Below the pieces are notes generated by a model. It did not search any database. It was not told the origin of the DNA and saw nothing but the letters and a program-made list of their open reading frames with translations. From positions 1 through 64,000 of the forward strand of contig NZ_PDWR01000001.1 in assembly GCF_010211755.1 (NCBI RefSeq): 64,000 nucleotides of DNA. Direction: 5' to 3'. The position numbers were made by a program, and so were the translations under genes. This document shows, piece after piece, positions 63,731-64,000 of the stretch. Position 1 is the first letter of the stretch. Every line of letters starts with the position of its first letter. Origin of the DNA: Pseudoxanthomonas sangjuensis. GTDB taxonomy: Bacteria; Pseudomonadota; Gammaproteobacteria; Xanthomonadales; Xanthomonadaceae.

Positions 63731-63775
63731 TTGCTTGCGCAACTGTTGCGCAAGCCCACGATCATCGGTTAGCGT
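63731..63775 (+). promoter_or_regulatory. Palindrome and putative promoter of the asnB leader
   Basis: GCTTGCGCAA (63733-63742) and TTGCGCAAGC (63746-63755) form a perfect 10-bp inverted repeat around CTG, with no U tract. A TTGCGC (63746-63751) in the right arm has TAGCGT (63770-63775) 18 bases later. This would start transcription at about 63782, right at the leader ATG. The palindrome may be an operator or the 3' hairpin of dapE. Confidence 0.45.
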
Positions 63776-63782
63776 TGGCCGC

Positions 63783-63875
63783 ATGAAGTCCTTCGCCGCC
63801 AACGTCGCGAATCCGAATAACCGCAACAACCTGCGTGCGAACGATCGTGCGCGGCCGGTGCGGGGCCGCGACTAG
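63783..63875 (+). CDS. Asn-rich leader peptide (30 aa), putative asnB attenuator peptide
   Basis: ATG 63783 opens a 30-codon frame ending at TAG 63873. Residues 7-20 include seven asparagines (NVANPNNRNNLRAN), followed by an Arg-rich tail. The frame has no visible Shine-Dalgarno, and the proposed transcription start almost coincides with the ATG, so it may be translated leaderless. It lies upstream of asnB with an alternative RNA fold and a terminator between. Translation stalling at Asn codons is the inferred signal. I am fairly confident of the ORF and composition; its regulatory role is untested. Confidence 0.72.
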   Translation: MKSFAANVANPNNRNNLRANDRARPVRGRD

Positions 63876-63930
63876 GCCAAGGGCAACCAGCCGAACAACC
63901 GAAACCCGCATCGCAAGATGCGGGTTTTTT
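63850..63930 (+). terminator. Putative asnB attenuator: pause hairpin, antiterminator and terminator
   Basis: Three competing helices are visible. Hairpin 1: 63850-63856 with 63864-63870 (7 GC pairs). Antiterminator: 63857-63864 with 63905-63912 (8 pairs, one G-U). Terminator: 63902-63912 with 63917-63927 (11 pairs, GCAA tetraloop), with six U at 63925-63930. The antiterminator uses the left arm of the terminator, so both cannot form at once. Confidence 0.75.
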
Positions 63931-63968
63931 CGTTTCCAGCCATCCCAATCCAACTTCGGGGAATTCCC

Positions 63969-64000
63969 ATGTGTTCGATCTTCGGCATCTTCGGCCTGCA
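63969..64000 (+). CDS. asnB: Asparagine synthetase B (glutamine-hydrolysing), 5' end only
   Basis: Only the first ten codons are inside the window: MCSIFGIFGL. The Cys2 nucleophile and this start are diagnostic of class II amidotransferases such as AsnB. GGGGAA about seven bases upstream can act as ribosome binding site. The rest of the gene runs past the window end. It lies behind an Asn-rich leader ORF and intrinsic terminator. Confidence 0.85.
   Translation, partial: MCSIFGIFGL

Follow-up and report, generated by a model that had tools for sequence, protein, structure and literature searches.

Attenuators of the his, trp, leu, thr, ilv and phe type combine a short open reading frame (ORF), rich in codons for the product of the pathway, with competing protector, antiterminator and terminator helices, and place the terminator shortly before the first biosynthetic gene; the attenuation mechanism of such amino-acid operon leaders is set out in passages of PMC9413887. 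The locus described here, at the end of the window (the whole 64,000-nucleotide stretch of DNA that was analysed), is built in the same way and differs in having Asn as its control codon and asnB as its gene. Proteobacterial attenuators were reportedly covered by a comparative study in 2004. In Firmicutes, Asn-specific T-box leaders control the transcription of asparagine genes through the charging of Asn-tRNA. Charging would control transcription at the present locus as well, but a T-box binds the uncharged tRNA directly and requires no leader peptide. The rhizobial trpL/rnTrpL attenuator encodes a leader peptide on a leaderless RNA and its products act in trans; the asnB leader resembles it in being leaderless, here as a prediction only, whereas the rhizobial system is one of tryptophan and it is there that trans-acting products have been described.

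The locus is very probably a ribosome-mediated transcription attenuator that ties expression of asnB to the supply of Asn-tRNA, judging from its sequence and from comparison with relatives. Its anatomy is that of a leader-peptide attenuator with an apparently new amino-acid specificity, and a response to Asn is predicted. The first-pass annotation of this DNA had known of no described Asn-codon attenuator for proteobacterial asnB, and none was found in full-text searches of the open literature either. Searches of the last 2 kb of the window (at a lax threshold) and of six relatives' loci gave no Rfam family at cut-off and no T-box among the matches; Leu_leader (RF00512; 22.1 bits, cut-off 50) and Thr_leader (RF00506; 18.5 bits, cut-off 55) stayed below their gathering cut-offs. 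Four leader peptides had no match in NCBIfam.

Organization of the locus

Leader, hairpin and terminator are located between dapE and asnB, of which the window holds the first 32 bases. The full asnB gene on the same contig encodes 575 amino acids and matches NF006949 (asparagine synthase B) with 853 bits (cut-off 499). The elements are as follows.

63746-63775, + strand: predicted promoter, TTGCGC at 63746-63751, 18-nt spacer, TAGCGT at 63770-63775
63783-63875, + strand: Asn-rich leader ORF, ATG start, 30 codons plus TAG, 7 Asn codons (five AAC, two AAT)
63821-63827, + strand: strand 1 (63821-63825 and 63827), in the Asn run, paired with 63858-63863 of S2 in the minimum-energy fold
63831-63854, + strand: hairpin H1 of the minimum-energy fold, 63831-63840 with 63845-63854, 10 bp, overlapping the protector hairpin by 5 nt
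63850-63870, + strand: protector (pause-type) hairpin, 63850-63856 with 63864-63870, 7 bp, S2 in its loop and 3' arm
63857-63864, + strand: antiterminator strand S2, pairing with S3 (63905-63912), with covariation in relatives
63901-63930, + strand: intrinsic terminator, 12-bp stem 63901-63912/63917-63928, loop GCAA, U6 at 63925-63930; the 5' arm contains S3
63969-64000, + strand: start of asnB, glutamine-hydrolysing asparagine synthase B; the gene runs past the end of the window

The leader peptide reads MKSFAANVANPNNRNNLRANDRARPVRGRD, with Asn at codons 7, 10, 12, 13, 15, 16 and 20, and re-reading of 63783-63875 confirmed the 30-codon frame with seven Asn among its first 20 codons on which the first-pass annotation was built. 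Its Asn density is 6 per 10 codons; when the 420 nt preceding asnB were dinucleotide-shuffled 2,000 times, the maximum was 4 per 10 codons, which occurred in three shuffles. The motif AAYAAYNNNAAYAAY is found three times in the 3.29-Mb genome, the leader included; of the other two occurrences, one is inside a long open frame and one where a leuD-like gene ends. In the latter the Asn pattern is out of frame, and this hit was rejected. AAT accounts for 45% of the Asn codons in the leaders (393/873) versus 13% in 25 CDS-like frames of the window (38/282). Codon 21 of the window's leader (63843-63845) is GAT (Asp) where a second Asn follows in many relatives of the genus (RANN), which places the control codon nearest to S2 one codon further back; two of the nearest relatives (L085 and L086) have His at this codon.

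The strong terminator that had been placed at 63902-63927 plus U6 was confirmed ahead of asnB at 63969, with a slightly longer full stem (63901-63912/63917-63928) of -19.5 kcal/mol. The 3' arm of the terminator recurs in S2, which has the option of pairing with the 5' arm, S3; the S2:S3 duplex comprises 8 bp, including one G-U, and has an energy of -15.2 kcal/mol. Both this mutually exclusive antiterminator (63857-63864/63905-63912) and the 7-bp pause hairpin (63850-63870) can be read in the sequence as originally claimed. The strand-1 helix, which encloses hairpin H1 in the minimum-energy fold, was absent from that earlier description.

Also overlooked earlier was a promoter-like pair of boxes, the TAGCGT of which ends 7 nt upstream of the leader ATG. 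From its position, transcription should start at about 63782-63783, at or beside the A of the leader ATG, so that the leader mRNA would be, and probably is, leaderless. When 134 distinct upstream regions were aligned on the leader ATG, two boxes appeared, a TTGC-like one near -36 and a -10-like one that ends at -7; the base at -35 is T in 79% of the regions and that at -7 is T in 67%, while C occupies -1 in 93%. A strict TAnnnT lies at -12 or -13 in 84/134 regions, and no such pattern lies nearby in 46/134.

Proposed mechanism

From these elements we infer where transcription starts, that the leader is translated, that ribosomes stall on it and that termination and antitermination take place in the cell, in the following way. 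RNA polymerase would start at the leader ATG or beside it, followed by ribosomes translating the Asn-rich leader. When charged Asn-tRNA is available, the ribosome would reach the stop codon and cover S2 (63857-63864), and the terminator (63901-63930) would form and end transcription before asnB. When it is scarce, the ribosome would stall in the Asn run, where it would either cover strand 1 (63821-63827) or, at the last Asn, open the protector hairpin (63850-63870). The freed S2 would then pair with S3 (63905-63912), blocking the terminator and allowing asnB to be transcribed. The first-pass annotation had seen here the logic of the his, trp, leu and thr attenuators applied to asparagine, and the conservation of leader and terminator together with the covariation of the helices, set out below, argues for this reading.

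Conservation among relatives

Leader, competing helices, their covariation and their spacing are established by sequence and comparison. The regions upstream of asnB were compared in 161 genomes of the family, namely that of the window and 160 others, 36 in the same genus; two further genomes with asnB were left out, one with the gene at a contig edge (G059) and one with a partial gene (G175). A short ORF with at least 4 Asn per 10 codons lies within 420 nt upstream of asnB in 135/161 genomes versus 2/1,610 shuffles. With 800 nt upstream and a threshold of 3 Asn, an Asn-rich leader is present in 145/161 genomes. A terminator-like hairpin, identified by a finder used without a shuffle control, follows in 143/145 of these, 19-49 nt (median 26) past the leader stop; in the remaining two (L180 and L193) the finder gave no hairpin. 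Relatives lacking both the Asn cluster and the terminator had been named beforehand as the outcome that would speak against an attenuator, and these counts are the opposite outcome. Among the 16 genomes without a leader, 15 (L228-L242) have a divergent asnB that is 62-65% identical to that of the window and no Asn leader, and one (L208) was called leaderless manually.

A dapE-like gene lies within 800 nt upstream in 74/145 of the leader genomes and not in the other 71. Assignment of the unit to dapE was accordingly rejected, since the leader is also present in those 71 genomes; being kept with and without dapE, it goes with asnB and is not tied to the neighbour. The N-terminal parts of the leader peptides vary in length and sequence, and C-terminal motifs such as RARPMRVCD and ASLPRAGD recur within groups. 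The tail codons differ from group to group (MRVCD, PRAGD, PQAGD), a pattern consistent with the RNA, and not the peptide, being under selection.

Beyond this family, an asnB match was obtained in 17/37 genomes searched from the rest of the order. The leader is present in 3/3 genomes of family f2, and in f12 in its genome and in two further f12 genomes. In family f7, one of six genomes (G252, locus L330) has a plausible leader, MFAIYNTINTTNNRLLRSAGSF, followed by a terminator before asnB, suggesting that the leader extends into another family, in at least one of its genomes. No leader was seen at the remaining asnB matches in f4, f5, f7, f9 and f10, one f7 locus being without an identified start.

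Among the matches listed, all 39 of the Lysobacterales-like named loci have at least 3 Asn and 35/39 have at least 4; leaders were found in Pseudoxanthomonas, Xanthomonas, Stenotrophomonas, Thermomonas, Luteimonas, Lysobacter, Arenimonas, Rhodanobacter, Dyella, Frateuria and Fulvimonas. At least 4 Asn occur in 3/41 of the other named asnB loci among the matches listed, two of these three having an upstream GC content of 0.29-0.32. The division into 39 and 41 loci includes one Pseudoxanthomonas locus (L049) that was moved by hand into the Lysobacterales group; one named only as Pseudomonadota (L009) was placed there on the strength of an 87% identical asnB, and three loci (L019, L030 and L043) were grouped with the others on account of their record names. 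These three, from records named Holophagales, Rhodococcus sp. RD6.2 and Deltaproteobacteria, have an asnB 72-80% identical to that of the window and no Asn-rich leader; either the gene was transferred without its control or the contigs are wrongly assigned.

Covariation of the competing helices

The first-pass annotation had suggested aligning the region from relatives and looking for covariation. An alignment (A1) of the window and 76 of 132 distinct candidates, picked for diversity, shows that the terminator and antiterminator helices covary, with all counts referring to sequences and not to independent events. In the terminator, 95.6% of cells in the 77 aligned leaders are paired and 9/12 pairs have changes on both sides. 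In the antiterminator, 74.2% of cells are paired versus 23-41% in slid versions (26% form no standard pair), percentages that lean upward because A1 lacks five leaders with a weak S2:S3 duplex (L220-L223 and L243; -9.3 to -10.8 kcal/mol). Both sides are changed in 48 antiterminator cells. The covariation score was reached by 0/500 shuffles, and three of five covariation measures beat all 500; the other two were not above shuffles (both-side changes, 293/500; further pair types, 492/500).

The most telling position is the antiterminator pair of alignment columns 67 and 128, which is G-C in 64 sequences and A-U in 13, with zero mismatches among 77. Column 128 belongs to S3 and is common to both helices. 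Where it is U (13/77), the S2 partner is always A, while the 3' arm of the terminator has A in only three and keeps G, giving G-U, in ten. As the antiterminator partner follows the change and the terminator is often left weaker, the S2:S3 pairing is maintained in its own right. Swapping the arms had a modest effect: a leader with its own terminator arm gave -14.7 kcal/mol, with other arms -12.9 kcal/mol and a shuffled leader -9.0 kcal/mol, with a mean rank fraction of 0.38.

Covariation is weaker for the strand-1 helix than for the antiterminator. It has 64.9% of cells paired in the 77 sequences versus 33-50% when slid (35% without a standard pair), and a covariation score of 0.186 versus 0.091 for shuffles, reached by 0/500; two of five measures are not clearly above shuffles (93 and 108 of 500). 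Hairpins analogous to the protector hairpin occur inside two leader groups. The fold after the last Asn codon is no more stable than in shuffles (mean z of 0.04), and the pairing energy between S2 and the part of the leader that precedes it does not beat that of shuffles (mean z of 0.12); what speaks for the protector helices is column-wise covariation and within-group topology, not energy.

Ribosome position and antiterminator pairing

Spacing and pairing were analysed in 140 of the 143 leaders with a hairpin, two being excluded because the wrong hairpin had been taken (L144 and L145) and one because of a misfitting tail (L210). Counted from the first base of the last Asn codon, S2 starts after 13 nt in 91/140 leaders and after 10-18 nt in 136/140. 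A spacing of 13 nt is about where the edge of a ribosome stalled at the last Asn should fall.

Stalling was modelled with equilibrium folds, not kinetics, allowing only the RNA ahead of the ribosome to fold, up to S3. With a ribosome edge at +12 and the A site at the last Asn codon, the mean modelled S2:S3 pairing of the 140 leaders is 0.75. Moving the ribosome one, two and three codons further lowers it to 0.65, 0.37 and 0.09, and with the ribosome at the stop codon it is 0.00, in line with the proposal that a ribosome there would hide the antiterminator strand. For stalls anywhere from 14 codons before the last Asn up to it, mean pairing at +12 stays between 0.69 and 0.75, to be read against a value of 0.51 already reached without a ribosome. 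These averages put the Asn codons on the permissive side, with the last Asn marking the border.

For the window alone the picture is uneven; its protector hairpin is strong and its codon 21 is Asp. At edges of +9, +12 and +15, modelled pairing is 0.41, 0.82 and 0.83 for a stall at Asn10, 0.83-0.84 throughout at Asn12, and 0.84, 0.84 and 0.08 at Asn13. At Asn15 and Asn16 it is below 0.1 at every edge tried, so that the antiterminator is not favoured, and at Asn20 the values are 0.06, 0.28 and 0.84. The first-pass annotation had argued that a ribosome stalled at Asn20 frees the antiterminator strand. The mean of the 140 leaders at the last Asn agrees with this, but the window itself would favour the antiterminator only at the widest edge, +15. 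Its accompanying reservation, that only the last Asn codon would be effective unless a further helix exists, is eased by the strand-1 helix with its partial covariation and by the permissive mean for earlier stalls, although not evenly so for the window alone.

Leaders of the same build before other genes

An RNA model built on the asnB leader (R1) scored 104.5 bits for the asnB leader and 46.1 bits for a leader before ilvC in the same genome. At low scores R1 is unspecific and also matches ordinary terminators. No Asn leader before asnB was present in the 19 loci inspected of 26 R1 loci outside the order (L277-L302). Twenty further R1 places comprised four asnB leaders in the order (L307, L310, L313 and L314), five ilvC leaders (L303-L306 and L318) and one ilvD leader (L309), the remainder being unrelated and mostly ordinary terminators. 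The genes of L303 and L309 were named by a scored match (513.6 bits to ilvC for L303) and those of the other places by likeness.

G000:C74:39597-39723, - strand: ilvC leader (L303), ending ...LALVLVLITKPTGAGRTGA, followed by an S2-like GGTGCGGG, a GC-rich terminator and then ilvC

This is a branched-chain amino-acid attenuator of the same build as the asnB leader, from which it differs in having Leu, Val and Ile codons; its presence in the same genome indicates that the device is at home here. Its leader peptide, MLQRHTPLANVPTAAEAASLALVLVLITKPTGAGRTGA, lies directly before ilvC, with TAGTTT just 5' of its ATG, and similar arrangements are seen in L304, L305, L306 and L318. At L309, from another family of the order (G217), a short ORF ending in SIALLILIDGAGPG is followed by a terminator and then ilvD (2170-2288 of the reversed locus).

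Asparagine supply

A match to asparaginyl-tRNA synthetase (AsnRS) was found in 21/21 genomes searched, the source genome included, and was above cut-off in 20. GatB had no match in the source genome or its genus and matched in 4/21 genomes (three above cut-off); AsnA had no match in the source genome. With AsnRS present and GatB and AsnA unmatched, Asn-tRNA is expected to depend on free Asn. The source genome has four other stretches of the Asn_synthase family, one of them strong, so other enzymes of this kind may exist beside asnB. In a study of the Xanthomonas small RNA sX13, the gene for AsnB2 is among the qRT-PCR targets (PMC3771888); no word beginning with attenuat- occurs in that article.

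Alternative explanations

A terminator between dapE and asnB that merely happens to lie beside an Asn-rich ORF would be unremarkable in itself, intergenic terminators being common and R1 picking up ordinary ones at low score. The unit is nevertheless present in the 71/145 leader genomes without dapE upstream, a promoter-like element precedes it and a third helix, S2:S3, covaries, and we give such a coincidence practically no credence. Somewhat less remote, yet still very improbable, is control of the leader and its terminator by a trans-acting factor or a ligand-binding RNA, with the Asn-rich ORF incidental. Devices of all these kinds have a terminator/antiterminator pair, and it is only by inference that the leader is translated. 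Such control would leave unaccounted for an Asn cluster that is far above chance and present in 145/161 genomes, the near-fixed distance from Asn to S2 and the unusually many AAT codons; moreover, neither the final 2 kb of the window nor the six relatives' loci yielded an Rfam family at cut-off.

It is also conceivable that the leader RNA or peptide acts in trans in addition, as in the rhizobial trp attenuator, the terminated leader then being a small RNA. The predicted leaderless leader does resemble rhizobial trpL, and RARPMRVCD and ASLPRAGD are found repeatedly inside groups. The C-terminal codons that recur are, however, those of S2 and are explained by RNA pairing, and the N-terminal parts of the leaders differ in length and sequence. 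We regard a role in trans as unlikely, though less so than the two preceding explanations, and favour ribosome-mediated attenuation in response to Asn-tRNA.

A probable asparagine-specific class

Taken together with its distribution, the locus is likely to represent an asparagine-specific class of attenuator that is of long standing in a single gammaproteobacterial order (seen in three families and probably in a fourth) and has a leaderless leader mRNA, RNA polymerase, leader ribosome and asnB being coupled from the first nucleotide. If so, asparagine joins the amino acids whose supply is sensed through ribosomes stalling on a leader peptide, here in a group to which Xanthomonas, Stenotrophomonas and Lysobacter belong, and the device would report naturally on the charging of Asn-tRNA. 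With over 140 leaders in which the spacing between last control codon and antiterminator is nearly fixed, the footprint rule of attenuation would become measurable across evolution, and the genomes of the family with a divergent, leaderless asnB offer a ready comparison.

Similar Asn leaders may have arisen independently elsewhere, for example in a Rubrivirga MAG that its record name places in a different phylum (L067), where an independent Asn leader and a mis-binned contig are both possible and where the Asn-rich ORF is weaker than the leaders of the order. This ORF contains NLTNANRN, lies about 175-40 nt before asnB at 2215 and is followed by a strong GC-rich terminator.
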